Part shown: positions 1,144-62,606 of the stretch, piece by piece
How the letters are laid out: the number at the start of each line of letters is the position of its first letter
Numbering within the stretch: position 1 is the stretch's first letter
Source of the DNA: Zeus faber
Lineage: Eukaryota; Chordata; Actinopteri; Zeiformes; Zeidae
Length of the DNA stretch: 64,000 nt
NCBI GenBank assembly: GCA_960531495.1
Contig: OY482847.1
Span: 28,753,098 to 28,817,097, forward strand
Direction: 5' to 3'
Translations under genes and position numbers: made by a program
Notes under the pieces: generated by a model
What the model saw: only the letters and a program-made list of their open reading frames with translations
What the model was told of the DNA's origin: nothing
Database searches by the model: none

Positions 1144-1262
1144 AGCATATGGCATTACATTACATTTAGCAGACGCTTTTATCCAAAGCGACTTACAATT
1201 GCTAGCATGCTAGCAGGAGGAGCCTGGGATCAAACCAGCAACCTTTAGATCACTAGACCACC
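1144..1262. repeat. Dispersed teleost repeat fragment
   Basis: This contains the stretch ACATTTAGCAGACGCTTTTA followed by TCCAAAGCGACTTACAA, which I recognise as a very common interspersed fish repeat. No coding potential. Confidence 0.55.
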
Positions 1263-5004: not shown

Positions 5005-5103
5005 TGTCACGACCAGAACTGGGAGAGACCCAAACGCACGACACAGGGAGACGGAAGGCAGGCAAAGGATGTTTATTAGCCGGGACTGTGGAGCTGGCCG
5101 TGG

Positions 5104-5765
5104 GGACCCGAGTTGAGCATGTCCCGGAGGAGATGGTTATTTAGGGCCTGGAAGACCACTGGGGCATTTGACAGACCAAAGGGCATAACAAGATACTCGA
5201 AGTGTCCGAGTGGGGTGTTGAACGCGGTCTTCCACTCGTCCCCTTCGCGGATGTGGACCAGGTGGTAAGCGTTGCGGAGGTCGAGCTTGGAAAAGTGGGT
5301 GCCACCCTGGATGGGGACAACTGAATCCATCAGGGGCAAGGGGTACTTGTCTTTGATAGTGATGTTGTTAAGTCCCCTGAAATCAATGCAAGGACGGAGG
5401 GTCTTGTCCTTCTTAGCCACAAAGAAGAACCCTGCGCCTAGCGGAGAAGACGAGGGGCGAATAAAATCAGCAGCGAGAGAGTCGCGGATGTAAGGGTCCA
5501 TGGCCTCCTGTTCGGTCCGGGAGACGTTATGCAGGCGACTGCAGGGGAGGGGGGCGCCTGGCAGGAGGTTGATTGCGCAGTCGTAGGGGCGATGAGGTGG
5601 TAAGAATAGCGCCCCCTGCTTGCTGAAGACCGGGGCCAGGTCCGGGTATTGCGACGGAACCGAGGGCAGGTTAGGGCTCTTGGGGAGCCCCGGCGGCACG
5701 CCCGGTGGCGGGGTTGAGGCCGAGCGGAGGCAGTGGCCATGACAGTGTGTGCTCCAGGAGCTCAA
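5104..5765 (-). pseudogene. Gypsy A reverse transcriptase, N-terminal half
   Basis: The minus-strand frame carries [21 protein letters not shown], then K-Y-P-L-P-L-M, then [11 protein letters not shown] with the first catalytic Asp of the RT, and [14 protein letters not shown]. It stops at R-D-M-L-N-S, before the Y-x-D-D box, where the internal deletion joins the LTR remnant. It therefore cannot encode an active enzyme. Confidence 0.85.
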
Positions 5766-10855: not shown

Positions 10856-13050
10856 ATGCTGCGGGTCAGATGTCTGAGAGGAGGTAGCAGGGGCCCTGAG
10901 GCTGCCCATCTGATCGGAGGTACATTGGGGTTTGATGTTTTTAGGCCTACTCCAAATTTAAAATGATAATAATTAAAACACATTTCTGCAACAACAAAAA
11001 CAATAAAGGGGAATAAAGACATTGTGTTTTTGAAAAAAATGGCTATTTATTCTTTCTATATATTTTTTTTTATCATCTTTTTATTACTATACCTACACTT
11101 TATTACTTACAATTGGATCTTTTTTTTCTCTCATCTGAAAAACTACAAAACACCGTTTTGAAAAAAAAAAGTGTTTTTCTAAGTGTTTCATTACATTGAA
11201 AATACATTGTTCTGCTTGTTGAGTGACGATGGACAGCTGTTTGAAGCCATGTGTCTCCTTGGCTTCTCTATTTAGATAGAGACATTTCTTGACAAGTGTA
11301 CGTTGGTTCCAACCACATGTCTTAAGAGGTTTCTCTCAGGTCTTTGAGTTAAACAAATCCGATATTAAAAAAAATCTGTTTTATATGGATTAAGACATAA
11401 AAATATAAGTAGGTTTTGTCTAGGCCTATATCACACATAACATTTACATTCCAGATTTTTCATTTCATGTTTTATATATATTCCTCCCAATTTCAGTTAA
11501 TAAATTAAAGAAAATCCCCCTAGATGTCTGTTAAAAATTAGTGTATCTTTTTAATGGAATCATTCTGTTCTGTTCTAGAATCATTTCTGTTTCTGGGTTT
11601 CTGGGTTTTCTAAAGAAAGACATTTTGCATTTAATTCAAAATGTTATTGGATGCTTATTTCTTGGCAGTTGGGCCAGTCTGTGGCTGGATGGGTGCAGAG
11701 GGGGTTTCAGAGCTTCTGCACAGCACCTTGCAGAAGAAACTGTTACTGAGCCATCGCAGGAGGAATGCCCTGTCTGTGCCTACAATGAGTGGGACACGCT
11801 GGAGGAAGTTATTGTGGTCAAAGTCAAAGTAAGTCATAGTGGGGAAAAAAGTTATTAAAGGAGTGGAAATCGGGCTGGGCGACATATCGATCTAATCAGG
11901 TGTCATATTGTGGTATGAGAATTGATATCATGTGGGATTTTACGACCCGATGTCAAAGAAATTTTGAATAAATTAAAACGCTTTACTTTTCCACTGTTGA
12001 CCATCTCGACCTGCCATTTTGTGTCATCCTTGACAGGCTAACACATATGAAAAGTATTGGCCCTTCTACCAGAAGTACGGAGGTCACCCTTTTCCAGGGG
12101 ACCATTTAAAGAAAGCTGTTGCTGAGATTTAGAAAATGTGCAATATTCTGCGTCTCGAAGGCGTCACCGTTCAGAGGCCAGAGCCAATTGACTGGTCCTT
12201 CGAATACAAAACTCCAGACTTCACATCATCAGGTACACACCAGGGCACGTGGTTGAGATTATAAAAAAAAAAATGTATTTGCCAGTCATTTTGAAATGTG
12301 TTAGAAAAGCCATTGCCCTCTACATTATCATCAATATTATGTTACTGGTGTACTGGTGTTACTGTAATTCTCTCATAGAGACAGTACCCTGGTTTCACCA
12401 CTTGACTTGGTTTTGTTTCCTTCAGATTGACATATTTAAAAAGGCAGGCTGGACTGTAGTGAAACCTCCACTGCCCTTGATTCCTGATGGTAATTAAAGA
12501 CGAATAATCCCAAATAATAAAATACCATGAGATAAATAATTTAGACCTTGGTAAGAAACGTTCAACTTTTTCTTCGACTTCTTCGTAGACCACACTCTGT
12601 GGATGTCCTCAAAGTGGTTGTCTATGAATGTATTGATGCTGGACGAGAAGCGCGTGATGGTCGACGCCAACGAAACCACCATTCATAAAATGTTTGAGAG
12701 TCTTGGTGAGTCAACATGTTCGAGAGATTCCATTTGTTTTAATTAGCGTGAGCAGGGAGGATTCATTTCAACACACCATGGCAGTCAAAATGGATCTTAA
12801 GGAAACACAAATGCATCTTGTTTTCTTCCTCACAAGAAAATAATCTGCTAGTATAAACCTATGATGGGTGAGATAATAATCTGGTATCGACATAATAAAG
12901 AACAAGAATTAATCTGATTAATGTGATACTCCTGCAGGTATCAAGACCATCAAGGTGAGCATTCGCCATGCTAACTCCCTGGGTGGCGGCTTCCATTACT
13001 GGACAACAGACGTCCGTCGCCGTGGGACCCTGCAGTCCTACTTCCACTAG
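10856..13050 (+). pseudogene. gatm: gatm copy A, decayed glycine amidinotransferase gene
   Basis: Exons with GT-AG borders: 1 (10856-10919), 2 (11669-11828), 3 (12037-12232), 7 (12426-12489), 8 (12589-12705), 9 (12938-13050, stop TAG 13048-13050). Exons 4-6 are absent: only 193 bp separate exons 3 and 7. Exon 1 begins [13 protein letters not shown], the same as human GATM at these positions, so it is the family-typical leader. Lesions seen: exon 2 is in a different frame from exon 1 at its conserved [10 protein letters not shown] segment; about 12 codons around [11 protein letters not shown] are lost from exon 2; GAG to TAG at 12130-12132 in exon 3; and TGC to TAC at 12997-12999, replacing the nucleophilic cysteine (Cys407 of the human enzyme) by Tyr. 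The introns prove a DNA-level duplication, not a retrocopy. Confidence 0.93.
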
Positions 13051-16690: not shown

Positions 16691-17642
16691 AACTTTGCCT
16701 CTCAAAATGAAAAATAAAAATTTCTCAACACTGTTCAAGAAGTATTTCATATAATAGAATAGAATAGTTTGGGCTCCTTTGTCCCTGACTAACTCCTTCC
16801 GCATGTGCACTATAGTATGCTGGTGTGGTCGGAGGCAGCGGCATCTGCCGTGGGAAGCTACTCTCTAGCACTGTCTCTCCATGACGGGGTGGGATGGTCG
16901 CTTAGTTGTGTTTACCTTTTTTGTTTCTTGAAAGCAGGTAGCTAGCGGAAATAAAAACACACGGGAACCATAAGCATCACAACTGAGTATGTTAATAAGG
17001 TATTATAAGTATTTTATTATTGGTCAGGCTTACAATGCAACACAAAATTAAGATAAATCTGTTCTGTCTCCATTTAACAAGGGGTCATTGGGCTGAAAAA
17101 AGGTTCAAGAAGATTCAAAAAGGCAATTAATGGTCATTAGTTGTTCAGTTGACCAAAAAATGGTAAGGTTGTCCTCTGAACAAGGTGCACGGTGGCCACA
17201 AAATGTATATATATTTAAAAAAAAATTATTAAACATGTTCAAAGGGAAGTGGCATCATCTGAACTGCCATGGGTAGAGGTATATGTCCGTTCTCCCATTC
17301 CTTTTTCTGTATTTTCACTGATATTGAGATGTTGACTGAGATGTCACTCTCAAAGTACAACCCTGTTAGCTTAAAGTAATTTATTTATTTTCTTAAAATA
17401 CATTTGAGGTAAATTATTACAATGTCCTTATTGTCCTTATTATGGACATGGAAGCTACTTAGCCACATTTTGTATATTTGCTAATTCTAAGTTAAAAAAA
17501 AACTACCCCTGTTACATCCACCCTGTTACACTAACCATGTTACAATTTTAAGCCATCTTCAGAAACCTTATAAAAGTTAGGAAAAGGGCATATTATTACC
17601 TGAAATGCATGTTTTCTTATATTCAATGTTGCAAATGACACA
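16691..17642. other. Intergenic sequence, nothing recognised
   Basis: AT-rich sequence. A faint internal repetition of CACCCTGTTACA-like words occurs at about 17505-17550. No gene is seen. Confidence 0.5.
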
Positions 17643-17920
17643 CCCGGTGAGGGGGCAACCTCTAAGGCCTCTGACAGCATTGTTCAATGAGAAATAAAAG
17701 CACAGATACAGAAAGTCAGATTTGCAGCCAAAGGTTATTTTAGTGCTCCATCTCCTCTCACTGTGAGGACTGAGAACACCTCCCTATATTCCAAAACATT
17801 ATACCTGCCACAACTTGTCTTTTGTGTTCCAAGAACAGAAATCAAGTTACAAAAATCAGGTTTGCTCTCTGGCAGTAGAGAGAAAGGAATGTGTGAAGCA
17901 CAAAGTAGTAAAGGAAGAAT
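17643..17920 (-). pseudogene. Inverted copy of the gatm B promoter region and exon 1
   Basis: Read on the minus strand, this repeats about 18505-18777: the upstream region, the leader (GGGAGGTGTTCTCAGTCCTC, AACCTTTGGCTGCAAATCTGA), the context TTCTCATTGAACAATGCTG and most of exon 1. Its ATG is the complement of 17678-17680. Four bases (CACA) present in copy B after ATGCTG are missing, so the frame shifts after two codons, and similarity ends before the splice donor. It faces away from copy B with about 590 bp between the arms. It could still promote minus-strand transcription but cannot encode the gatm leader. Confidence 0.85.
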
Positions 17921-18599
17921 AGCGCTAGACATCAAACATGGCTGCACGCAAAGCTTGTTTGTGACGAGGAGGAATGGAGCAGTGCAGGGATGATGTATTT
18001 TTGTCGACAAAAAGCCAATGGGATTTTCCTATTGGATTTTGGATTATTGCAGAAGATTATCTCCATTACAAACAATAGTTGATGATACATTTTTTATTTG
18101 AATACACATCTTGTTCAGCGAGATTTATAAGAGCTGCAAGGATTGACTGACACCCTAACCATGGAATCACTCATACTGTACAGTATGTATGGTTCTCCGC
18201 GCAGCAACATTTTGGTATCAGTATATGCTTATTATTTTTATTAAAAGCTTGCAATCTCTTCTGTTGGAGAAAAAAAAACAGACATACCAGCTCTTTTCGG
18301 CGCTTTTGTCAGTTTATTAATCACCATAAACAGCAATAGAGTGTTTCAGAAATGCAATTTTTGCACTTTCAGTTCCCTCGTCTGAAAGTGAATTGGTTAT
18401 TTGAATGGTTTCTAGTTCAATAAGGGAAATAAGGCCTGTGGTTAACACAAGCTAAACTGATTTTCACCTTTTGGTCTACAACATAAAATATGACCAGAGC
18501 CTTTACTAGCCCTACTACTTCCTGCTTCACACATTCCTTTCTCTCTACTGCCACCGAGAGCAAACCTGATACTCAGGTTCTTGGAACACCAATTACAAG

Positions 18600-18729
18600 G
18601 AGTGGTTAAATATTATGTTTTGGGATGTAGGGAGGTGTTCTCGGTCCTCACAGTGAGAGGAGATGGAGCACTAAAATAACCTTTGGCTGCAAATCTGACT
18701 TTATACTTCATTTTATTTCTCATTGAACA
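18600..18729 (+). promoter_or_regulatory. Proximal promoter and 5' UTR of gatm copy B
   Basis: This segment is conserved in three places (here, inverted at 17681-17800, and at 58165-58265), including GGGAGGTGTTCTC, CAGTGAGAGGAGA and AACCTTTGGCTG. The last of these is also hinted at in copy A. Conservation outside the coding region is what suggests promoter or UTR function. No canonical TATA box is visible at a fixed distance; AAATATTATG near 18606 is the nearest candidate. Confidence 0.5.
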
Positions 18730-18777
18730 ATGCTGCACATCAGAGGCCTGAGAGGTTGCCCCATCACCGGGTTACAG
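18730..18777 (+). CDS. gatm: gatm B exon 1 (leader)
   Basis: Sixteen codons ending in phase 0 at CAG before GTGAGT. The ATG was chosen because it is the first in the conserved leader and the same ATGCTG occurs at the same place in copies A and C. Copy A exon 1 is longer (64 nt) and ends in phase 1. Confidence 0.85.
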
Positions 18778-20633
18778 GTGAGTAGAAGCTTGACATTAAT
18801 GCCTTATTTTACTGATATCCTTTATTCTGTTTCTTTAGTATGTAATTTCAGCAAATACAGAGAGAATACTCTAGTCAGGGATGAAGAAAGTTTTTCACCA
18901 ACCAGGTTTTCTTCTGAAGTTCAGCCCAGGCAATTCATACATTTAAAAGGGATTCCGACAGAAAATGGTAAAAAACAATAAGTTAAAATAAGAAGAACCT
19001 ATCTTTATACTGTATATCTGAAAACATTCAACCACTGGATGTTTCTACGGTTTGATTACCAATGGACAAAAGAACTCTGCATGCCTGCTCATGTAACAGT
19101 TGTTCCATGAGCAGGCATGCAAATGTTTTATTGTTACTGATTAACATTATTCTCTAATTGTCTAATCTAATCGAATCTCTCTAATTGTTTTAATTCTTCA
19201 TTTGTAAACACACTGAGCAGTTAACGTATTAGTTAGGTTGATGCAACTATGTAGTTGTGTGTATTCAGTCAGCAGGAAGATGTTCTAGAATGGAGGAACG
19301 GCAAATAACATGTACTTTATTTGGGTTTTTCTTTAAGGTTTTTTCTCATTGCATTTGTTTATTTCTTAGCAGTTGGGTCTGGCCAGATGGGTGCAGAGTG
19401 CATTTCAGAGCTCTTCCAGCACTGTGGCTGCAGGAGGAGCTGTCCCTGAGCCAGCAAAGGAGGAATGTCCGGTCTGTGCCTACAATGAGTGGGACCCACT
19501 GGAGGAAGTCATTGTGGGCCGTGCCGAAAACGCTTGTGTGCCTCCCTTCAGTGTTGAAGTCAAAGTAAGTCATAGTAGGGGGAAAGTACTGCCTTTAATT
19601 TTCTGTGCACATTGACAAAGTGCTTATTACAGAGGTTTTACTCACCGTTTCCTTATTAAACAGGTTTCTTCTGGCCACAAATGTATAAAAAAAAAATGTT
19701 TCCACTCGACATTCCACAGCTGACTGGAATGCTATAAATTTGAAATGTTACCTATGGCTCAAGCAGATAAGATAAAATAAGAAAAGATAAGATAAGATAA
19801 GATAATCCCCGGTGGTAAATTTGTAGTGAATACTGACAGAGTGCAGGAATGAGACTGAGACTGAGAATGGTGATGCGCAATGAGATGCTTGATGCTGAGA
19901 CGCATCGCGCACGCCGCAGTATTGAGCGCAGCGTGCAATACCGACTGCTGTGAGAGCTGTTCGTAAGTCTGAACGGTCATTAAACAGGTAGGTCATTAAG
20001 TGACAAGTACCTGAATGGGCATATTCCCTTTTCATGAACTTGGCCTGTTTCTTTGTTTCAACTGTATTAGGCTGGTATTCTGTTTAGGCCTGTTTTTGTA
20101 GAACACTGAAGTTCTTTCTGTTATTTTATTACTTCCCTTTTTTGGGGTTTATAGCATACATTTTTTTAAAGGTTTTTTAATACATATACATTGAATATTG
20201 GTAGTTCAGTATAACATACAATCAGTTTCTTGTCATGTGGGTGTTAATAATTATTTTATATACTGCTGCAATAACTCTGTCCTGTGGATGACCTGTAGAA
20301 TGACAAGAGCTTTTTGGTTATAGAGAACCACCACCAACCCCCCTCTTTGGAGAATTATTTATCATGTTTGGGTCTATAAACAACCGATCACTACTCCAAG
20401 AGGGGGAGATTCACCATTGGTGAGACAAATAAACATAGAAACAAACAACATTTACACAAAACATGAACATTAGATGAGAACATGGATTGAAAAACAGTGA
20501 ATTAGTGAACTGCTCACGTGGCCTCTTCCTGTCATTATTATGGCAGTAATTGAGAGAGGAAAGGAGAGGAATGCAACCAGGAGGGTGCTGGGGTGCACTT
20601 GAAGCAGGTGTGGCAGTGTGTGTGTGTGTGTGT

Positions 20634-20689
<56 letters not shown>

Positions 20690-23600
20690 ACCGGTGAGTG
20701 TACATGACTTATCCCCATTGGTTCTGGTGTAGAAGGTCAGTAATATGTCATGGCGCCTCTAAGCAGCGGAAGGGGCCCCGAAGCCCCCCCGAACTCCGCA
20801 GCCCCGTGGATACCCTAAAGCCCTGGGTACCCCACCCTGCGGCCACAGAAGACACCGGGCCCCCAGAGAAGCCAGAGCAACCCCCACGCCCAGCCCCGAG
20901 GAGCATGACCTAGGCCCAGGGAGCACGAGGAGACCCCGTACCCCAGGGGCGCACACATACAATCAACCCCCGGGTGCAGGCACAAGACTCAGCCGCCGAC
21001 ACAGAACCCGGGCCATGGGCACAAGGCACGGACTGCGGCCCCGGATCCTGGCCCCACGGCGACAGACTGACACCCTACTTGAGCCGCCCGCCCCATGGGA
21101 AAGCAGTCCCCCCAGGGGCCCCAGAAGGCACCTGGCGGCACTGTCCGCAACCCCGCCGGGTCGCAGCACATCCCAAACCACCAGGCGCAAGCCTTCAGGA
21201 CTCCAGCCAAGCAGGGAGGGGGGGCCCACACTCCGGCCAACCACGCCCCTACACCAATCCGCCAGTGACTGGCCAGCCCGGAAAAAAATAAAAATAAAAA
21301 AAATAAAAATAAAAAGTGAGGTGTTAAACCGCCAGGGAGGGTTCCATTTTGTTTCATTTATCAGGTTGAAACAACCACTGGTGTAACGCCAACAACACCA
21401 AATTCCTCTCCCACTCCTGCTCGCCCAACCTGGAACAGCTGACCATCCTATGCCGTCCATTTTATCTCCCCCGGGAATTTAGCACGGTCATCATTACAGC
21501 CGTTTATATCCCACCTCAAGCAGACACCGACGCAGCTCTGTTGGTCCTGTACAATGTGTTGTGCGGATTTCAGAACAGACATCCCGACGCGGCTGTAGTG
21601 GTGACTGGGGACTTTAACAGGGCCAACCTTAAAAAAGTTCTGCCTAATTTCCACCAACACATTACGTGTGCCACCAGGGGAGATAGAACTTTGGACCATT
21701 GTTACACACCTTACAAGAACGGATACAAGACTGTCTCGCTCCCTGCTTTCGGGAAATCAGATCACGCCACGATCTCACTGGTTCCTGTTTACAGGCCTCT
21801 GATCGCGCGAGAACTGGTGGTAACGAGGGATGTGAAGCGGTGGACGGATCAATCGGAGGCTGCGCTTCAGGACGCTCTGACTGACGTAGACTGGGACATG
21901 TTCCAATCAAGTTCAAGTGATGTCAGCAAGTTTACGGAGGTTGTAGTAAGTTTTGTAACTACGCTAGCAGACAACATCGTTCCCACGGGGAAAGTTCGGA
22001 GATTTCCAAACCAGAAACCGTGGGTTGATAAATCCATCCGCTGCGCTCTGAATGCTCGCACGGCCGCTTACAACGAAGGTCTTGTATCCGGAAAAATGGA
22101 CAATTACAAAGCGGCGTCGTACAATCTGCGGAGGGCGGTGAAGGACGCTAAACGGACCTACAGAGAGACTGTGGAACTACAGATGGAGCGGGGGGACACA
22201 CGACGCTTGTGGCAGGGGCTGCGGACTATTAAGAATTACAACAGCAGCTCCTCTTCAGCCAGGGGAGGGGCTGCGGATGATAACAGACTACAAGAGCATC
22301 TTCTCCCCAGCCATGAGTGTGGACACTTCCCAGGCCAACGAACTAAACTCCTTTTATGCAGGGTTTGAGTCTGGCAACAGAACCGCTAGCTGGCCGGCTA
22401 ATTGGAGTTACACCGCTCGGGATGAGCGCGCACGAGGTCAAGAGGGCTCTGATGCGTGTGAACACCAGGAATGCTGCGGGCCCAGATGGCATATCTGGGC
22501 GTGTACTGAAAACCTGTGCTAACCAGCTAGCTCCGGTGTTCACTACAATATTCAACATCTCCCTGGCTGAATCAGTGGTCCCATCCTGCTTCAAGAGGTC
22601 CACCGTCGTTCCTGTCCCGAAGATCACCTCTCCTGCCTGAATGACTACCGTCCGGTGGCCCTCACCTCGGTGGTCATGAAGTGTTTCGAGAGGCTGATTA
22701 AGGATTATATCTGCGCCTCCCTCCCCCGCACCTTGGACCCGTTGCAGTTTGCGTACCGGAAGAACAGATCCACAGATGACGCGGTCTCCCAGGTACTGCA
22801 CACCACGCTTAGCATCTGGATGGCCAGAAGGGGGCCTATGTGAAATTGCTGTTCATTGATTATAGTTCAGCTTTCAACACCATAGTCCCCACCAGACTGG
22901 CTGTCAAGCTGAAGGAGCTCGGACTGAATACTCCGCTGTGTGTCTGGATCCTGGACTTCCTCACAGCCCGCCCCCAGGTGGTCAGGGTGGGAAAGCACAT
23001 GTCAAGCTCCCTCACCCTGAATACAGGATCCCCCCAGGGTTGCGTCCTCAGCCCCCTACTGTACTCCCTGTGCACACATGACTGTGTGGACAGGTCCAGC
23101 TCCAACACCATCATCAAGTTTGCTGACGACACCGTTGTCGTGGGCCTGAGCACCGACTGCGGCGAGAAGGAGGTGGCTGACCTGTCACTCTGGTGCCAGA
23201 ACAACAGCCTCCACCTGAACGTCAGCAAAACTAAGGAGCTGATTGTGGGCTTTAGGCGAGGCCCTTGGTGATTAATGGGACTTCTGTTGACAGAGTGAGC
23301 AGCTTCAAATACCTGGGAGTCCACATCACAGAGGACTTAACATGGACTTTACATACAGACACTCTGGTGAGAAAGGCGAGGCAGCGTCTTTACCACCTCA
23401 GGCAGCTGAGGATCCTCAAGTCCTTCTACTGTGGAGCAGTGGAGAGCATCCTGACAGGCAACATTGCTGCCTGGTTTGGGAGCTGTACTGCTCAGGACAT
23501 TTTTAATGAATTCATTAAAAATCCTACAATGGGATTTCCTGGATTCTTTCCCCCCATTCAGTCTCTCAGAGTCCAAGTGAACCTATGATGAAAATTACAG

Positions 23601-26600
23601 GCTTCTCTCATCTTTTTAAATGGGAGAACTTGCACAATTGTTGGCTGACTAAATCCTTTTTTGCCCCACTGTATTTCCGCTTCCGTCTTCTCGCAAGATC
23701 ACAGCATGCTCCCCCCTCCCCTTAATAATAAACCACAACAGGATCCAACAACACCTCTGCACAAGCTGATGAGCTCTGGCTCGAGCTGCAAGCTTCGCGT
23801 TCCCTGTTTCTCCCATCAATACAAATAGAAATAGTGTGATTTTAGATTATTATTTTTTCCGGGCTGTAACCGACTCAGACTTTTGTCAGTCGAATCGCAT
23901 TCGCATCTGTCTCCGTCTTCGATGGTACAGACGATATGCGAGCCAGCGATGCAGTGTCAGCGATAAGTGGCAGAAGAGTGTGTTTAAATTTTACCTCTCC
24001 TTACGGAATGAAACATGTGGGTATGGAACGAAACCGTGCATCATTGTGACGCTTTCTCTGTGAATCTCTCCCGATCACCCCCTCGCAGAAAATACTCCTA
24101 ACGAGTCTACGAGTTGTGCCCCTTCCTCCTTGCTACATCCCCACACTGTTTTTAGTTGTTTTATTTGGAGGAACCAGGGCACGGCGATCGGGGTGCACGG
24201 AGAGCCGTGTTGGGGTCTGATCCTGACACGGTTGACACATCTAAAAATATATTTATGATTCCTCTTATTTATAATTTCCATTGAAATGTTATCCCGTGCA
24301 ATTTGAAAACTTCTGTCTGTTTTATCCTTGTTTAAAATGCACACTGACTAACAAAAAAAAACCCAACTGCTCGACTTGAAGAATCTCATTCGACTGACCG
24401 AATCTAGCAGTGAAATCGACCAAAAAATGAACGTCTACAATAATGTATCATGCGACACATCAGTCACACGTAACACATGACACGTTTGTTGAAGAATAGA
24501 TTTAGATATATCTATATTGAGAGACTATTATCAATCTATCTTACTTACTAGTACTAACTTACTAGTGCTAACAGGGAGAGAAAGGGGCTCAACAAATTAT
24601 TTAAGTAGTAAATAAAATAATTATTTCATAATAATTAATTAATTGTATTATTTTAAGTGATACTATTTGCAATGGATTTAGAAACTATAAATTAACTCAT
24701 GGAATGTAATTAAGAATGTAGATTTTTACTTATTTTATTTATATTTACTTTTCCCGCGCCCCTTTGCAATTCCTCCTCGCCCCACTAGAGGGGGCAGGGG
24801 GCGACTGGCAGTTTAAATACCACTGTACTACCAGTACAACACAAACGTTGCTCAGAACCTGAGTTCAACATCAATGACACAACTTTGTGTGTTTGTCATT
24901 TTCTTTATTTGTGTCACTATCCACAGGCTAACACATTTGAGAAATATTGGCCCTTCTACCAGGAAAATGGAGGGAAATCTTTCCCAGAGGAACACCTGAA
25001 GAAAGCTGTTGCTGAGGTTGAGGAATTGTGCAATGTTCTGCGTCTCGAGGGCGTCACTGTTCGGAGGCCGGAGCCCGTTGACTGGTCATTTGAATACAAA
25101 ACTCCAGATTTCACATCATCAGGTAAACACCAGGGCATGAAGCTGATACAGTTTTCCACATCAGGTATTGTGGTCACATAATACCTGAACAATTGAGGCA
25201 TTGTAAATATCCATATAGCACGTATACTTGTATAAGCATGTATACTACTATATATTCAATGATGTGTTGTCATTCTAAAATGATTCAAACTGATTGCAGG
25301 CATGTACGCTGCCATGCCCAGAGACATCCTCATGGTTGTGGGCAATGAAATCATTGAGGCTCCCATGGCCTGGAGGGCTCGTTTCTTTGAATATCGCGCC
25401 TACAGGCCCTTGATGAAGGAGTACTTCAGAAAAGGTGCCAAATGGACCACTGCTCCCAAACCCACCATGGCCGATGAGCTGTATGATCAGGTATGGCAGA
25501 ACACAAATAACCATCTACACACCAGAGAAGAGGGCTAAGAGGGTTTGTTTTGACCACCTTGCCAGATTAAAGAAAAGTGATAGAAGGCTATTTGTTTATG
25601 TTACATTCACCCGATATTATCTCAACCCATGTCGTAAAGCCGTTTAAGAATCCACATTTTTGAAAAGTACAATATACAGTGGTATCTTGATTTACTAACA
25701 TACGAGTTTTCCGAGTTAAAAGCCGTCGTTCCGTAGATTTTTTGTATTGATTGGCGAGCAAAAATGTGAGTTACGAGGAGTGAGCTTCAGCTGCGCCGCT
25801 CGTTGGCATGGCGAGCGAATGGGGCCAGCATCCCGCATCTTATTCCCCATGTCATGTGGTTACCTGACCATGGAAGCATCTCTTTTGTGGTTTGTGCTCG
25901 CGATTTGTGCTTTTTTGTGCAGTTATTTTGCCAAAAAAAAAAAATTCTAACCTTGGGTCCTGAGAAAGTGAGTGCTGAGAAGAAGAAGCGGATGATGTCG
26001 ATTGAAATAAAGCATGAAATCATAGAAAAACATCAGCGAGGTGTGCATGTGATGGAATTGGCGAGGCAGTACGAGCGTAGTTCTTCTGCGATATGTACCA
26101 TACTGAAGCATAAGGAGGCGATAAGGGTATAACACCAGCCAAGGGCGTTAAAATAATGTCTAAGCGGCGGACTGCTGTACATGAAAAGATGGAGAATCTG
26201 TTGTTGGTGTGGCTGACGGAGAAGCAGCTCGCAGGAGATAGCGTGATAGCATTTTATTATGTTTTTATACAATATTTGTTATTTATAAATACATTTTTCT
26301 TATTTAAAAACACGTAACAAAAGAAAATTGGGGTGGTTTTTTGGGGGCTGCAATGGATTAACGGCATTTCAATTAATTGCAATGGGTTGAATTGATTTGC
26401 TATACGAGCAGATTGAATTAGGAGCTCTGTCACTGAACGAATTAAACTCGTAAGTCAAAGTACCACTGTATCTCTCCATTCAGCCCCCTCTGACATTAGA
26501 GGATGACATATTCTTTAAAACGCCAACCTGGTCTGTGTCTGGCAGTACACCCAGCTTTTGCAGGTGTTCTGTAATCTACATATGAAAAAAGTTTCAAACA

Positions 26601-28938
26601 CATACTCCATGGCAGACTTCATTCTTTGCACCAAGACGTATTGGAAATACCTTCAAATTCCCTCAAGAGGCTTTTTTTTGTTGTTCAACTGCGATTACAG
26701 TAACCATATCTATTTCCACTGCTGGACCTAACTCGACTGCAAAGTAATCTTTTGGGTCTATAAGCCCTGCTGTGCAGGTTTTTGAAGATCAGGAGTATCT
26801 AGGGAAGGCTGATGATAAGGTTATTTCCAGCAGTTACCAGTCAAATTTATTTCGAGCTGATTTCATTCCTGCTTGTGCCCTCCAAGGAATATCCCATGCG
26901 CACGGCAGAGGACAGACGGAAGCTCGCTGTCCAAGGGAAGTTTGTGACCACAGAGTACGAGCCTTGTTTCGATGCCGCCGACTTCATCAGGGCTGGGAGG
27001 GATGTGTTTGCCCAGAGGAGTCAGGTATGTAGGCCACAGTGGGTGTGGGCTGGTAGCCTCTCTATTGCAAACATGACATATTTCTAAAAACCTCACTGTC
27101 TCATCTAGCTACCATTATAAGTCATTAATGTAGACAAATATTAAAGATTCAACATTTGATTTTGGGTCTGCTGTGTGCAGAGGTATTGCAAGGCAGCGTG
27201 ATGAAATGAAAGATTAAAAAATAAATAAAATAAATAAGAAAAGGTGCACTGGGTGTACTGTTAAATGGGAAAGGATGGTGTGAGAGAAAAATGATTACGA
27301 TCAACTATTTTCAATGAGGACAAAAGCCTCTACCTCCAAAAGGGGGTAGAGAAACCTCTAGGAACCTCCCCAGGAACCCCCCAGAGTTCATGTAAAGAGA
27401 AATGTTTTGCTCCTACAATCTCAATTCTAATATGAAAGAATCAGATCACACTTGGCCCTGTTTTGGAGTTGAGGGACACTCAACAGGAGAGCCTAGAAGT
27501 GCATTGTCATGCAACCCCCATTCTGCCAGGTCAACTTTGCAAGTACCGGTTACTTCCCTTGTCTAGGGGGGGCACCCAAGAAGACAGTTGGAGAAGGGGC
27601 GCAGACTTTCTTTCAGACCTCTGATCCAAACCACACCCTGTTTTTCCTATATAAAGCCTCCTGTCTTTTTCTGTGATATCAGATTGATCCGAGCACTGCT
27701 TTGTAGCAGTACTGAATCTTACTCTTTATTCTATAAATTCTATAATCTTGGATATTCTCAGTTTTGTTTTCTTGAAGCGGGCAGATAAACTCACCGATCA
27801 TTGCCGAAGAATTTCTTCCACAATGGGGAGAGGGAAAGGGGTTGCTATTTTCCTTAGTTTATTGAAAGTAACACAATTAACACAAAAAAAACACATAGAA
27901 AATTCATATTTTCTTTTACCTTCATAATTTGTTTTCATTATTATTATTATAATCATTTTTCTTTAGTTGTGCACCTTAATAGGCAATAAAAGCCACAAGT
28001 GAATGTGAAATCCAAGGGAGGGGGGCTCGAAAAGAAAAAGTTCAATACCACTGATAAGCAAGTCAAATAATTCCAATGCTCCTATAGGGAGTTTGGGTAG
28101 GGGGGCTTCCCCGAGTTCAGTGATTTGGATTGGTTTCTCCTTCATTTGCAAGGTGGATATTGGATAATAATGCACTTTTCTCTTTAAGAGTAGAAATAAA
28201 TAAAGGATGCTTGATGCTCATTGATGAGGCAAGGCCCTAAGCAGTTGTCTATATCCACAAATAGGTCACTGGGAAGTATTCCTGTTGTCATCTTTATAGT
28301 TTCTGTCTATACTCAGTAGGTCATGTTATTCAGTAATCATGGACCTACAATCATGGAAAATCTTCAATGCAGCGCTGTCAAGGATCAGTCTGACTGCATG
28401 TTGAGTGTTCCTTCCCCACACCAACTCCTTGGCTTTATCTCCAGGTCACAAACTACATGGGAATTGAATGGATGCGTCGCCATCTGGCCCCAACCTACAA
28501 GGTTCACACCCTCTCCTTTGATGACCCCAACCCCATGCACATTGATGGTACTTTTAACATCATTGGCCCAGGACTGGTGCTGTCGAACCCGATTCGGCCT
28601 TGTCACCAGGTGAGAACAGAAGAGAATAAGATACAAAGCTGTACTGCCCCCTGGTCGTGTGACACTGTAATAGGTTCGACTGACACCAGGCAGTGCACCA
28701 TCTTTTAATTATTTATGTGTTTGTTTGTTTGTTATTCCCTTTTATTTTTTTTCCTTCAGATCGAAATGTTTAAAAAGGCTGGTTGGACTATTGTGGAACC
28801 TCCCCTGCCCATGATGCCTGATGGTGGGTAATAGAAGACAAATATTCTTGTGATGTGTGTTTTTACAAGGTAACTGTTTGGAAAAAAAAGAACAAGTTGC
28901 AACTTTGTTTTGTTATTATTATTATTATTACTACAATG

Positions 28939-28969
<31 letters not shown>

Positions 28970-29015
28970 CTTCTTCTTCTTCTTCTTCTTGTTCTTCTTC
29001 TTCTTCTTCTTCTTC

Positions 29016-29053
<38 letters not shown>

Positions 29054-29378
29054 TTTGCAGATCACCCATTGTGGTTGGCCTCTAAATGGCTGTCTATGAA
29101 TGTACTGATGCTGGATGAGAAGCGTGTTATGGTTGAAACCAAAGAACCTACGATTCATAAAATGTTTGAAGACCTTGGTGAGTGCACATATTATAACATT
29201 TTAAATCTCTCTCTCTCTTTCTTAGATGTGTGTGTGGGATAATATACTCCAAAATTACATTTCCACAGGTATCAAACCCATCAAGGTGAGCATGCGCCAT
29301 GCCAACTCCCTGGGTGGAGGCTTCCATTGCTGGACAACAGATATCCGTCGCCGTGGGACCCTGCAGTCCTACCTCTAA
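18730..29378 (+). CDS. gatm: Glycine amidinotransferase, mitochondrial (gatm copy B, nine exons, appears intact)
   Basis: The enzyme (AGAT) moves the amidino group of arginine to glycine, giving guanidinoacetate and ornithine, the first step of creatine synthesis, in the mitochondrial intermembrane space. Exons: 18730-18777, 19373-19564, 24927-25122, 25300-25490, 26887-27024, 28445-28609, 28760-28823, 29061-29177, 29269-29378. All introns are GT-AG, phases match throughout, and the sum is 1221 nt or 406 residues, against 423 in human. The catalytic triad is present: Asp238 in F-D-A-A-D (codon 26971-26973), His287 in P-M-H-I-D (28538-28540), Cys391 in F-H-C-W (29328-29330), each exactly 16 below the human number. 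The oddity is exon 1: [16 protein letters not shown], shorter than and unlike copy A and human, though still Arg-containing and amphipathic enough for a targeting peptide. A full-length transcript would prove it; the coding evidence is strong. Confidence 0.95.
19078..19121. repeat. Perfect 16-bp inverted repeat (hairpin) in gatm B intron 1
   Basis: TGCATGCCTGCTCATG at 19078-19093 is followed after 12 bases by its exact reverse complement at 19106-19121. It lies 250 bp before exon 2 and is not part of any repeat family I recognise. Confidence 0.9.
19373..19564 (+). CDS. gatm: gatm B exon 2
   Basis: The acceptor TTCTTAGCAG precedes TTG and the donor is AAA before GTAAGT. It encodes the rest of the leader ([11 protein letters not shown], then a Ser/Ala/Gly-rich linker) and the start of the mature enzyme: [27 protein letters not shown]. 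64 codons. Confidence 0.95.
19768..19806. repeat. (GATAA)n microsatellite in intron 2
   Basis: Seven to eight GATAA-like units. The following 19807-20030 is not recognised; it may belong to a short interspersed repeat. Confidence 0.8.
20611..20689. repeat. (TG)n microsatellite in intron 2
   Basis: A nearly pure TG run with one interruption. Confidence 0.95.
20740..21310. repeat. GC-rich interspersed repeat with A-rich end
   Basis: A markedly GC-rich block (CCCC and GGGGCCCC words throughout) in an AT-rich intron, ending in AAAATAAAAATAAAAAAAAT-like sequence at 21283-21315 and directly followed by LINE sequence. The sharp base-composition change and A-rich tail suggest an inserted repeat, perhaps a LINE 5' region. 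Long open frames on both strands follow from the composition. Confidence 0.55.
21370..23480 (+). pseudogene. APE-type LINE in gatm B intron 2 (endonuclease and RT)
   Basis: The frame at 21541-22368 holds the endonuclease core [11 protein letters not shown] and S-D-H-A-T-I-S-L, then the linker [13 protein letters not shown]. 22356-22840 and 22840-23271 give the [49 protein letters not shown]. 23265-23480 continues with S-F-K-Y-L-G-V-H-I and the C-terminal half. The palm aspartates are kept, but at least three frame breaks exist (near 22260, 22640 and 22840) and there is a short internal duplication around 22215-22285. It is in the same orientation as gatm. Confidence 0.85.
23508..23671. mobile_element. 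Tc1-like transposon end fragment
   Basis: It matches the right end of the complete element (48955-49116), including TTTTGAnTGGGAGAACTTGC-like sequence and the inverted-repeat end GGCTGACTAAAT...TTTTTTGCCCCACTG, followed by TA. The left end and transposase are missing. Confidence 0.8.
23672..24926. other. Rest of gatm B intron 2
   Basis: No coding exon is seen. 24550-24760 is very AT-rich, and a branch-site/polypyrimidine region precedes the acceptor at 24926. Confidence 0.5.
24927..25122 (+). CDS. gatm: gatm B exon 3
   Basis: It follows CTATCCACAG, ends in phase 1 before GTAAAC, and carries [18 protein letters not shown] and [11 protein letters not shown]. Its length (196 nt) equals exon 3 of copy A, where one of these codons is a stop. 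Confidence 0.95.
25300..25490 (+). CDS. gatm: gatm B exon 4
   Basis: It follows TGATTGCAG and ends at CAG before GTATGG. It carries [18 protein letters not shown] and [17 protein letters not shown], core strands of the amidinotransferase fold. Copy A has lost this exon. Confidence 0.95.
25677..26468 (+). mobile_element. Tigger-like transposon with transposase N-terminus, intron 4 of gatm B
   Basis: The ends CAGTGG and CCACTG are flanked by TA (25675-25676, 26469-26470), with longer imperfect inverted repeats. About 25970-26130 translates to [17 protein letters not shown], then [18 protein letters not shown], a pogo-type helix-turn-helix. Then 26150-26240 reads [12 protein letters not shown] and L-L-V-W-L-T-E-K-Q, the start of the second DNA-binding domain. 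The DDE catalytic part is deleted. The 436-bp element at 14335-14770 is its shorter relative. Confidence 0.85.
26887..27024 (+). CDS. gatm: gatm B exon 5 (catalytic Asp)
   Basis: The acceptor is GCCCTCCAAG and the donor CAG before GTATGT. 46 codons, phase 0 at both ends. It holds [17 protein letters not shown] with the triad aspartate. Confidence 0.95.
27279..27822 (+). mobile_element. Solo LTR of ERV family 1 in gatm B intron 5
   Basis: It starts TGTGAGAG and ends CTTCCACA, with a perfect 4-bp duplication ATGG (27275-27278, 27823-27826). It carries TATATAAAG near 27649 and is collinear with the LTRs at 36871-37403 and 52685-53237, with a private internal difference at about 27326-27400. The clean TG...CA ends and target duplication show insertion followed by LTR-LTR recombination. 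It has the same orientation as gatm. Confidence 0.9.
28445..28609 (+). CDS. gatm: gatm B exon 6 (catalytic His)
   Basis: It follows TATCTCCAG, with the donor CAG before GTGAGA. 55 codons, phase 0. It holds [11 protein letters not shown] and [16 protein letters not shown] with the triad histidine. Confidence 0.95.
28760..28823 (+). CDS. gatm: gatm B exon 7
   Basis: It follows TTTCCTTCAG and ends in phase 1 before GTGGGT. It encodes [14 protein letters not shown]. Same length (64 nt) as in copy A. Confidence 0.95.
28913..29056. repeat. TTA/TTC trinucleotide microsatellite abutting the exon 8 acceptor
   Basis: (TTA)n, then about 22 TTC units with one GTT interruption, then (TTA)n. It runs to within 5 bp of the acceptor AG of exon 8, so the repeat itself supplies the polypyrimidine tract. 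Frames of poly-Ser, poly-Phe, poly-Lys and poly-Asn here are artefacts. Confidence 0.95.
29061..29177 (+). CDS. gatm: gatm B exon 8
   Basis: The acceptor TTTTTGCAG directly follows a long TTC/TTA microsatellite; the donor is CTTG before GTGAGT. It encodes [21 protein letters not shown]. Same length (117 nt) as in copy A. Confidence 0.95.
29269..29378 (+). CDS. gatm: gatm B exon 9 (catalytic Cys, stop)
   Basis: It follows TTTCCACAG. It encodes [20 protein letters not shown] then Q-S-Y-L and TAA. The nucleophilic cysteine is TGC at 29328-29330. It ends one residue earlier than the human protein (S-Y-L-D). Confidence 0.95.
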
Positions 29379-43556: not shown

Positions 43557-44570
43557 CTACAGTTGTGAATCATCTGCATAATTATGGTAATTTATTTTGT
43601 GTTTCTTTACAATATGTGCCAGTGGAAGCATATAGAGGTTAAACAATAATGGTCCCAGAATAGAACCTTGGGGCACTCCACATACAATATCCACTTTGTT
43701 TGACACAAAATCTCCAATGGGCCCGAAGAACTGCCTGTCTTGTAGGTAGGTTTTGAACCAAATTAGAACCGGGCCAGATAGGCCAATCCATTTTTGTAAT
43801 CTCGCTAATAAAATCTGATGGTCAACAGTGTCGAAGACAGCACTGAGATCCAGGAGCAGAAGAACAGATAGTTTTTTTGCATCATTGTCTATGTGTAGAT
43901 CATTCAGAACTTTAATAAGGGCTGTTTCTGTGCTATGATGAGGTCGAAAGTCAGATTGATAGGTGTCTAAAAGGCTGTTTGAGGTTGGATAGTTGTTACG
44001 CTGAAGGTAAACTGTTTTTTCAAGTATTTTGCTGACTAATGGCAGGTTGAAAATGGGCCTATAGTTGGCAATAACTGTTGCATCGAGATTGCTCTTCTTC
44101 AGGACTGGTTTAAAGACAGCTGTTTTAAATGCTGCTGGGAATATACCTGATTGAAGAGAGCCATTTAAAATGTCTAATACCTCATGTGCTAGGCAGTTAA
44201 AAACTGTTTTGAATTTGGTAGGGAGGGGGTCCAGGCAGCAGGTGGAGGACCTGAGCTGACCAACAATATCGTCCAGTCTTTTTATGTCTAAGGCGACAAA
44301 ATGAGACATGGCAGCAGTCATATTACTGAGGAACTGAAGGATAAGTTCATTTCTGGATGTTGAGGCACTAATATTCTGTCTGATAGATATATTTTTGTTA
44401 CTGAAGAATGTAGCAAACTCCTCACATTTTTCAGTGGAGAGCATCTCTGAGGGGGTTGTAGATGGTGGATTAACAAGTCGATCAACAGTGAAGAAGAGCA
44501 CTTTACTATCGTTGAGGTATTCATTAATGATTTTAGAGAAGAAAGACTGTCTGGCCTGTTTAATTTCCAT
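43557..44570 (-). pseudogene. L2 reverse transcriptase segment (337 codons)
   Basis: Motifs in order: L-D-P-L-P-T, I-A-N-Y-R-P-I-F-N-L-P, Y-Q-S-D-F-R-P-H-H-S-T-E-T-A-L, V-L-L-L-L-D-L-S-A-V-F-D-T-V-D-H with the first catalytic Asp, C-G-V-P-Q-G-S-I-L-G-P-L-L-F, and Y-A-D-D-S-Q-L, the catalytic box in the form typical of L2. The frame is open but lacks the C-terminal part of a full ORF2. Confidence 0.85.
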
Positions 44571-45682: not shown

Positions 45683-46618
45683 TCAGCAGTGAACAGAAGA
45701 TTTCAGCGTAAGTTTCATGTTTAAGGCGAGGAGGCGTGATCCGTGAAAGTTTGGATGAACTCCACCATGTCTGAAGACGTTTGGACGGTCCAAGAAGGTG
45801 CCAAAGTTGTCCACAAACGGTACGTTGAGGAAGCAGCAGTATCCCTTGAGCCATGTGTGTAGCTGAAGGACACGCATGAATTTTACGTCTCCAAAGCTGG
45901 GACACGGCAGGCCGGAGATGATGAACCGGAGGTCCAACTGGAGAAAACTGTCAATAAGCTTCGTAAAGTCTTTTTTAAGTGTCTCTGATTGTTTGTTCCT
46001 GAGATCGTTGGTTCCTACGTGCATAAGAATAGTGGAGGCAGACGGGTTTTGATCAAGCAGCTGTAGGATTCTGGAGTCTATATCCCGGACAAGAGCACCC
46101 GGGTAGCATATGGTTTTAGCCGCAAGCAGGGTGGTGCCTCGAACCATGGAGGAGCCGACAATGAGCATGGATGAAGGTCCGGCAGCAGAAGAGTTCCAAG
46201 GGACCGCAGCAGCCGAGCCAGGAGAGCACCGACCTCCCAGAGGCGGCGCAGGCAGGCGGTCCAAGTCAGTGACTGTGAGTGGCCCCGACAGGCGGAGTTC
46301 GCGCTGCGGGAGCCAAGGCGGTGCTTTGTGGTGTTGAAAACAGCAGGGCCCACGGCAGCGGAGCAGCCACCAACTGTCTCGGGAGCGGAGGCCCGGGCAG
46401 GCGATGGATAGTCTGGCGGCAGTGGGAACGAGGCCGGCGGCGGTAGAGACCGTCTTGGTGCCCTCGATGCCACGGTGGACTGTGAGCCCCCCCCCCAAAG
46501 AAGGGGAATTTCCGCATATCTCTGGCATCGACTGTGGGCTCCAGGGCTTGGAATCTGTTCTCCAGCCAGAGAGTCTCCGGCATAGAACGGCGCAAGGAGA
46601 GCACTTAACACCGGCCAC
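45683..46618 (-). pseudogene. L2 ORF1 with SGNH esterase-like domain
   Basis: It contains M-L-I-V-G-S-S-M-V-R-G (block I serine), I-L-M-H-V-G-T-N-D-L-R (block III asparagine) and G-G-V-H-P-N-F-H-G (block V, histidine), the order of an SGNH hydrolase. Esterase domains in ORF1 are known from CR1/L2 LINEs. The first quarter of the frame, rich in Pro, Arg and Ser, is weakly conserved sequence. The protein's N-terminus lies in another frame at 46987-46685. Confidence 0.75.
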
Positions 46619-58265: not shown

Positions 58266-58316
58266 ATGCTGGGTCTGAGAGGTCTTAGAGGAGGTTGCCG
58301 GGTCGCTGGGTTACAA
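58266..58316 (+). CDS. gatm copy C exon 1 (leader only)
   Basis: Seventeen codons, M-L-G-L-R-G-L-R-G-G-C-R-V-A-G-L-Q, in phase 0 with an intact donor (CAA before GTGAGT), homologous to exon 1 of copy B. About 90 bp of intron 1 are also conserved (ACATTAATGCCTTA, AATTTCAGCAAATACAGAGA). From about 58406 similarity ends and retroelements follow. No exon 2 is found to the end of the window. Either exons 2-9 lie beyond 64000 behind inserted elements, or this is an orphan promoter-exon duplicate. Confidence 0.7.
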
Positions 58317-60589: not shown

Positions 60590-62158
60590 GGGCGAGTGCC
60601 CTTCCGGATGAGGGAGGCATCCAGGATCTGTCTCCGAGGGACCCAGGAGCATTCCTCCGGACCGTACCCCTCCCAGTCCATGAGGTACTGAAGGCCCCTC
60701 CCCCGGCGCGGCACGTCCAGCAGGCACCGCACTGTGTAGGCTAGGTGATCGTCGATGGTGTGGGGGGGTGGTGGGGCCTTGGCGGGGAAGGAGAGAGGGC
60801 TGGAAACCACCGGCTTAAGCAGGGACACATGAAAGGTGGGGTGGACACGGAGGGAGGGAGGGAGACGGAGGCATACAGCACAGGGGTTGATGATGGACAA
60901 AATAGGGAAGGGACCAGCATACCGGGGAGCGAGTTTTACCAGAGAGCCATACCATCTGTCCGGGGACGTATGTGGGTGCAGCCGCACGGTGCCCGTTCGC
61001 CCACCGCTGGGACCTGGCGGAGGCCTGGAGTAGGGCAGAGCGGGCCCTCCTCCACGTCTTCCGGCAGCGACGGGTGTGGGCCTGGACGGAGGGTACAGCA
61101 ATCTCAGCCTCCTGGGCAGGGAACAGCGGGGGTTGGTAGCCCAGAGAGCATTGGAAGGGCGACAGGCTGGAGGAGGCGTTGACCAGGGTGTTGTGGGCGT
61201 ATTCGGCCCATGGCAGCTGGTCGCTCCAGGAGGTGGGGCTGGTGGTTGTCAGGCAGTGGAGCATGGCCTCCACCTCCTGGTTTGCCCGCTCCGTCTGGCT
61301 GTTAGTCTGGGGGTGGAAACCGGAGGAGAGACTGACCTGTGCCCCCAGGGCCGAGCAGAAGGTGCGCCAGACCTGGGAGGTGAACTGGGGACCTCTGTCC
61401 GACACCACGTCTGCCGGGATGCCATGGGGGCGGAACACTTCGGCCACCAGCAGGTCCGCGGTCTCCCTTGCCGATGTTAGTTTGGGCAGGGCGAGGAAGT
61501 GTGCCGCTTTAGAAAAGGGGTCCACCACTGTGAGGATGGAAGTGTTGCCCCGGGATGGTGGGAGACCGGTGACAAAGTCCAGGGTGATGTGGGACCAAGG
61601 ATGAGTCAGGATGGGTAACGGGCAGAAGAGGCTGGAGCGGGGTTGGGTTGAGGTCTTGGACCAGGCGCAGGTGGGACAGGCAGAGACGAAGGACCAGGTG
61701 TCAGGGAGCAGGGTCGGCCACCAGAAGCGCTGGCGGACGACAGCCAGGGTGCGGGTTATCCCGGGATGGCAGCTGAGGCGGGTGGCATGGGCCCACTGCA
61801 GAACCTGGGAGCGTGCGGAGTCAGGAACGAACAGGCGGTTAGGGGGTCCGGTACCTGGGTCGGGCTGGTGTTCCTGTGCTCGGGTGACAAGGGACTGAAT
61901 TTCCCAGGTGAGCCTGGCGGCAAGGCAAGGGGGTGGAAGGATGGGTTCTGGATCCCCTGCATTCTCCTCTGGCGTGAACATGTGGGACAGGGTGTCAGGC
62001 TTGGTATTCTTGGTGCCTGGGCGGTAGGAGAGAGAGAAGTAAAACCGGCCGAAGGACAAGGCCCACCTGGCCTGCCAGGAGTTGAGCCGCCTCACCGTCC
62101 GGATACAGGCCAGGTTCTTATGATCAGTCCAGACAAAGGGGTGGTTTTGCTCCCTCAA
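60590..62158 (-). pseudogene. Gypsy B RNase H end, integrase and chromodomain
   Basis: The 447-codon frame 62158-60815 starts in RNase H (V-W-T-D-H-K-N-L), continues through the H-H-C-C zinc site (T-R-L-S-C-H-P-G and S-A-C-P-T-C-A) to the integrase core with D (T-L-D-F-V-T-G-L-P), D (V-S-D-R-G-P-Q-F) and E ([10 protein letters not shown]). In another frame 61101-60535 adds the C-terminal [12 protein letters not shown] and a chromodomain ([17 protein letters not shown]). A frameshift near 60990 separates them. The integrase core looks intact. Confidence 0.88.
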
Positions 62159-62606
62159 CCCAGTAGCGCCACTCCTCCAGGGCTAGGTTGACGGCCAGGA
62201 GTTCCTGGTTGCCCACGTCATAATTGCGTTCGGGTGGGGTGAGCCTGCGGGAGAGAAAGGCACAGGGGTGGAGCTTACCGTCTGTTGAAAAGTGCTGAGA
62301 CAGTACGGCTTCTACCCCCGTGTCCGAAGCGTCCACCTGTACCACGAAGTGGAGGTTGGCGTCAGGCTGGGCCAAGACTGGGGCCGACGAAAAGCGACTT
62401 CTGGGGTCCAGGAACGCGGCCTCTGCCGCGGGGGTCCATTTGAAGCCCACTGTGGTGGAGGTAAGGGCTGAGAGGGGAGCGGCGATACAGCTGAAGTTTC
62501 GGATGAAGCGCCAGTAGAAGTTTGCAAAACCGAGGAAGCATTGGAGTTGCTTCCTATTGGCTGGGGTTGGCCACTCCATCACGTCAGCTACTTTCTTGGG
62601 GTCCAT
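62124..62606 (-). pseudogene. Gypsy B RT thumb and RNase H
   Basis: It reads [30 protein letters not shown], then V-Q-V-D-A-S-D-T-G (the RNase H first Asp) and [24 protein letters not shown]. The frame ends just before the adjacent RNase H frame 62158. Confidence 0.85.

Follow-up and report, generated by a model that had tools for sequence, protein, structure and literature searches.

An additional gatm gene with a shortened first exon amid intact and broken gatm copies in Zeus faber

Zeus faber carries, beside the canonical gatm gene encoding AGAT, the first enzyme of creatine synthesis, a further intact gene (gatm2) that is quite likely to be a functional tandem paralogue with a worn-down, homologous exon 1, its product most likely being an ordinary mitochondrial AGAT. 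Taken overall, the locus is mostly a case of ordinary gene duplication, with an intact additional gatm residing among clustered copies, some whole and some broken. The gene lies in the window, a stretch of 64,000 nucleotides (C3:28753098-28817097 of an 803-Mb assembly), from whose first base all coordinates given without the prefix C3 are counted. A first-pass annotation of this DNA had proposed that the gene acquired a new first exon; the evidence presented here corrects that exon-swap claim.

Structure of the Live gatm2 Gene

The live gatm2 copy occupies positions 18730-29378 (+) and consists of nine exons with an uninterrupted frame of 406 codons, separated by introns that are all GT-AG (Table 1). 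Its exons have the phases of the canonical gatm of this genome, and the phase 0 end read earlier for exon 1 is seen at the donor; the nine-exon, live-looking paralogue with matching phases put forward in the first-pass annotation is thus borne out. The canonical gene, identical in exon number and phases, differs in length: exon 1 of the live copy is 7 codons shorter (16 codons, compared with 17 in copy C, the second intact gatm2, and 23 in the canonical gene), and exon 2 lacks 6 codons (64, 67, and 70 codons, respectively), 2 of them near its start and 4 in the linker. The tandem acceptor of exon 2 makes one additional Gln possible. A coding extension of this exon into the 150 upstream bases was ruled out by in-frame stops. 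Intron 2 holds an insert (20770-23500) that appears LINE-like by eye, and a Pfam scan of the frame 21541-22365 within it returned no match.

Table 1. Positions of gatm-related and other features in the window and in the surrounding C3 cluster.
Feature	Position	Strand	Remarks
Canonical gatm	C3:28657484-28661353		intact
Copy A, broken gatm2	C3:28666661-28679552		promoter/5′ flank fused to middle of exon 2
Minus-strand gatm exons	C3:28687461-28702341	-	
Minus-strand exon 2	C3:28716302	-	
Mixed gatm fragments	C3:28843283-28846965		
Dead tandem copy of canonical gatm	10856..13050	+	stop, frameshifts, damaged exon 1 donor
Inverted relic, gatm2 exon 1 + 5′ flank	17642..17910	-	4-nt exon deletion, donor lost
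Proximal 5′ flank of live gatm2	18629..18729	+	common to copy C; not clearly canonical
gatm2 live exon 1	18730..18777	+	leader-coding, phase 0 end at CAG|gtgagt
gatm2 live exon 2	19373..19564	+	phase 0 start, TAGCAG|TTG
gatm2 live exon 3	24927..25122	+	gene model
gatm2 live exon 4	25300..25490	+	gene model
gatm2 live exon 5	26887..27024	+	gene model
gatm2 live exon 6	28445..28609	+	His303, Asp305, Arg322 kept; residue 321 = Ile
gatm2 live exon 7	28760..28823	+	gene model
gatm2 live exon 8	29061..29177	+	gene model
gatm2 live exon 9	29269..29378	+	Cys407 and stop TAA
Copy C, second intact gatm2: exon 1	58266..58316	+	exons 2-9 beyond window, C3:28825598-28837606
Reverse transcriptase/RNase H/integrase frames	43560-44570, 5079-5765, 60818-62158, 62127-62606	-	Pfam
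Frame with weak GDSL-lipase match	45686-46618	-	35.7 bits vs cut-off 32.9
UnaL2 LINE 3′ element	1156-1209	-	Rfam

The gatm Cluster

It had been predicted that a canonical gatm should exist elsewhere in the same genome, and the genome search did find it, intact, about 110 kb upstream. A genome-wide DNA search with the exon 2 stretch returned nine matches, all of them within 28.658-28.846 Mb of C3, and a search with exon 1 plus the promoter gave matches on C3 only; genome-wide coverage consists of these two queries, and diverged gatm copies could exist elsewhere in the genome. Reading of 257 kb of C3 around the matches yielded a map that documents, in one fish, a gatm cluster of nine places with a span of ~190 kb including the canonical gene, three of them intact as gene models and six broken or partial; any number of separate duplications read from this count would represent our own grouping. 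None of the literature titles listed concerns tandem gatm copies in fish. Copy A shows, as further lesions, a frameshift in exon 5 and the loss of the start of exon 7. The canonical protein is 89% identical to its nearest relatives in Salmo, Esox, and Boleophthalmus and 91% identical over 369 columns to that of Coregonus. Beside its gene, the frames C3:28641202-28641495 and 28647670-28648212 (-) resemble, by eye, slc27a2 exons.

In the dead neighbour, six of the nine exons were found and exons 4-6 were not; exon 2, with 160 nt versus 210 nt in the canonical gene, is frame-shifted, and exon 3 contains a stop. From the 5′ flank through exon 1 into the beginning of intron 1, this copy is 97% identical to the canonical gene (347/358), and its exon 1 donor has been lost (GGAGCTATGGTTGGTATTGG vs GGAGGTACATTGG), so that its apparent phase 1 donor GT is attributable to damage at the true donor. 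The first-pass annotation was right about the deadness of the copy and its leader sequence and mistaken in regarding the phase 1 end as family-typical: the intact canonical exon 1 also ends in phase 0, which makes phase 0 of the live exon 1 the family phase. Splicing of the dead exon 1 to the live exon 2 was discarded, as the joined frame is shifted and terminates after 46 residues.

Origin of gatm2

The linkage of gatm2 to canonical gatm favours local duplication as its origin, although an older one is possible. According to the sequence of events that can be proposed, a local duplication of canonical gatm would have given rise to an ancestral gatm2, the homologous exon 1 of which would have been shortened by in-frame losses of internal codons and have drifted, and subsequent re-duplication of gatm2 would have generated the live copy and copy C as well as several broken copies lying in either orientation.

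In the gatm tree the live copy and copy C are sisters (support 100/100) on a long stem (0.25) at the unresolved base of the teleosts, and gatm2 was not joined to the canonical gene of this genome in free trees. This placement would also be expected if gatm2 were an old teleost paralogue that survives here alongside gatm and has disappeared from most fish, a history that is conceivable and rather unlikely. It is disfavoured by the tight linkage to canonical gatm, by the observation that gatm2 and the canonical gene constrained as one clade were not rejected (AU p 0.364), and by the fact that, among the best 120 of 5486 matches, no relative exceeded 84% identity to the live protein, the best full-length one being that of Chanos (78% identical). 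A constraint uniting gatm2 with the "-like" proteins of Antennarius and Brachionichthys was not rejected either (AU p 0.13). These paralogues resemble gatm2 in being divergent gatm copies in fish, labelled "-like"; unlike gatm2, they have a near-canonical 23-residue leader, and in the free tree they fell with other spiny-rayed fish. A second gatm of Brachionichthys is also among the matches listed.

Selection and Active Site of the Enzyme Body

Purifying selection on gatm2 was evidenced by Nei-Gojobori estimates, which gave dS 0.522, dN 0.096, and dN/dS 0.183 for the live copy vs the canonical gene and dS 0.161, dN 0.045, and dN/dS 0.276 (Fisher p 7e-8) for the live copy vs copy C; all length changes between the exons of the two gatm2 genes are in-frame. 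Counted from human residue 60 onward, 171 positions are invariant in 30 vertebrate-type proteins hand-picked from 38 rows (the eight omitted include several incomplete models and one newt, Lissotriton), and the live copy keeps every one of them; copy C alters four, including the substrate-site Arg322, which is replaced by Leu. Ten active-site positions were checked and all are retained in the live copy, in agreement with the earlier statement that it keeps all catalytic residues. In human AGAT numbering, the catalytic residues Cys407, His303, and Asp254 and the substrate-site residues 170, 305, 322, and 355 are all present. The ten active-site residues and the full set of invariant positions are thus common to the live protein and vertebrate GATM/AGAT, including human 1JDW (736 bits), and its kinship to characterised AGAT is close over the whole mature protein; identity to the canonical AGAT of this genome amounts to 82% (333/406). 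Neither intact gatm2 protein matched a Pfam-A family at E 0.001 or better.

With no invariant position changed vs four in copy C, the live copy is very probably a working AGAT, presumably transcribed, and copy C may lack activity, or be losing or changing it, as judged from their sequences. The product of the live gene would most likely act as ordinary AGAT, transferring the amidino group of arginine to glycine and yielding guanidinoacetate for creatine synthesis. High gatm and gamt expression in fish muscle is described in PMC13264567, so that an additional AGAT could bear on the creatine supply of muscle. Given the broken state of six out of nine gatm places, the live copy might be imagined as an unexpressed, very young pseudogene with its lesions still to appear. 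Such a state is improbable: the dS of 0.16 to copy C goes along with a dN/dS of 0.28, exon lengths changed only in frame, and within that time some of the 171 invariant sites would be expected to have been struck by neutral drift. Between the live copy and copy C, dS is 0.79 in the leader and 0.115 in the body, a contrast hinting that gatm2 bodies may have undergone gene conversion with one another.

Exon 1 and Its 5′ Flank

The canonical exon 1 of this genome comprises 69 nt and ends in phase 0 (...GGA GCT ATG|gttggt), exon 2 then beginning in phase 0 with TTGGGC. Live exon 1 is homologous to it, as their alignment scored 18 vs a shuffle maximum of 9.5 (p 0.001, 1000 shuffles, ATG omitted), and copy C exon 1 scored 27 vs a shuffle maximum of 14.5 under the same procedure. 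The leader of copy C, MLGLRGLRGGCRVAGLQ, is closer to the canonical one (LRGGCR) than that of the live copy. Given this homology, the equal phase and position, and the like leader of the sister copy, the acquisition of a new first exon is not supported, and live exon 1 is, on sequence grounds, the ordinary first exon shortened. Since copy C belongs to the same derived class, the short leader can be regarded as a trait of the duplicated gatm2 class and not as a one-gene exon swap.

Over ~100 bp 5′ of the ATG, the live copy and copy C are about 88% identical. The gatm2 5′ flanks aligned only marginally to the canonical flank (p 0.02 and 0.05), an outcome that would fit a new promoter and that ordinary decay at dS ~0.5 would equally yield. 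The inverted relic at 17642-17910 pairs with 18513-18772, head to head with live exon 1, the inner ends being ~600 bp apart. The inverted repeat 17642-18772 was considered as an exon-supplying transposon and rejected, because its left arm and part of the spacer match the 5′ flank of copy A; it looks like a relic of another gatm2 copy, which fits better than a transposon.

That an unrelated first exon and promoter were added to the live copy, shifting its location or tissue, is very improbable: its leader is 7 codons shorter than the canonical one and only partly alike, its 5′ flank aligns poorly to the canonical flank, and exon 1 sits at the edge of the inverted repeat, but the exon 1 score lies above all 1000 shuffles with phase and boundary equal, the sister leader is nearer the canonical one, and the repeat resembles relic gatm2 exon 1, not a foreign exon source.

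Leader and Probable Mitochondrial Import

Up to FQ, the live leader has 28 residues, 3 of them basic and none acidic (helical moment 0.34), the canonical leader 37 residues, 5 basic and 1 acidic (0.48), and the leader of copy C 32 residues, 5 basic and none acidic (0.40). The live leader would thus be weaker yet leader-like and, since it is basic and acid-free, mitochondria stay the default location; the change of cellular location suggested in the first-pass annotation found no positive support. In RxFQ|S, the cleavage motif of the AGAT leader, Arg is replaced by Ser in the live copy, and Esox and Salmo likewise are without this Arg. The shorter basic leader would most likely direct AGAT from the live gene into mitochondria, with cleavage close to the conserved FQ|S. 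For the leader only, dN/dS is about 0.9 between the live copy and the canonical gene (few sites), 0.29 between the live copy and copy C, and 0.39 between copy C and the canonical gene.

Leader Conservation and a Possible Second Role

Gatm2 is unusual in that a strongly conserved leader was let go. In vertebrate AGAT, mean conservation is 0.949 for residues 1-18 vs 0.899 for residues 64-423 in 27 proteins chosen for a full leader, with Lissotriton excluded, and the 18-residue stretch ranks 79 of 406; 35 of the 38 rows fit a pattern in which parts of the first six residues are set in advance, and the three rows left out have no such start. As conservation of the leader equals or exceeds that of the enzyme body, which is more than an import signal should need, it can be proposed that the leader, or its DNA/RNA, carries a second job, such as creatine feedback or a fixed import route, and that gatm2 is an escape mutant, a quite improbable idea. 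In its favour, exon 1 diverges more than its own non-coding flanks between the gatm2 copies: 35 of 48 positions are identical in exon 1, vs 99/113 and 88/101 in the aligned parts of the 120-bp flanks, and the corresponding differences (13/48 vs 27/214) gave a Fisher p of 0.024 in a comparison picked post hoc. Against it, the leader of the newt Lissotriton agrees at only 13 of 23 residues, and the differences between the gatm2 leaders up to FQ are synonymous too (10.5 synonymous, 12.5 non-synonymous); with the leader dN/dS of 0.29, the excess divergence of exon 1 is not by itself a sign of selection for new leaders. In passages of PMC10725494, creatine is described as lowering AGAT in a way said to be incompletely understood, and mouse data are cited there that place the repression by creatine at the pre-translational level (PMC10725494), an argument against a sensor in the leader peptide; that the leader takes part in creatine feedback on AGAT is speculation. 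Two intact genes without the conserved leader, one of them with all invariant residues in place, constitute a natural experiment on AGAT leader function.

Other Features of the Window

Ten frames of the window were scanned against Pfam; five were without a family and four correspond to reverse transcriptase, RNase H, and integrase (Table 1). The GDSL-lipase-like frame is perhaps part of a retroelement.
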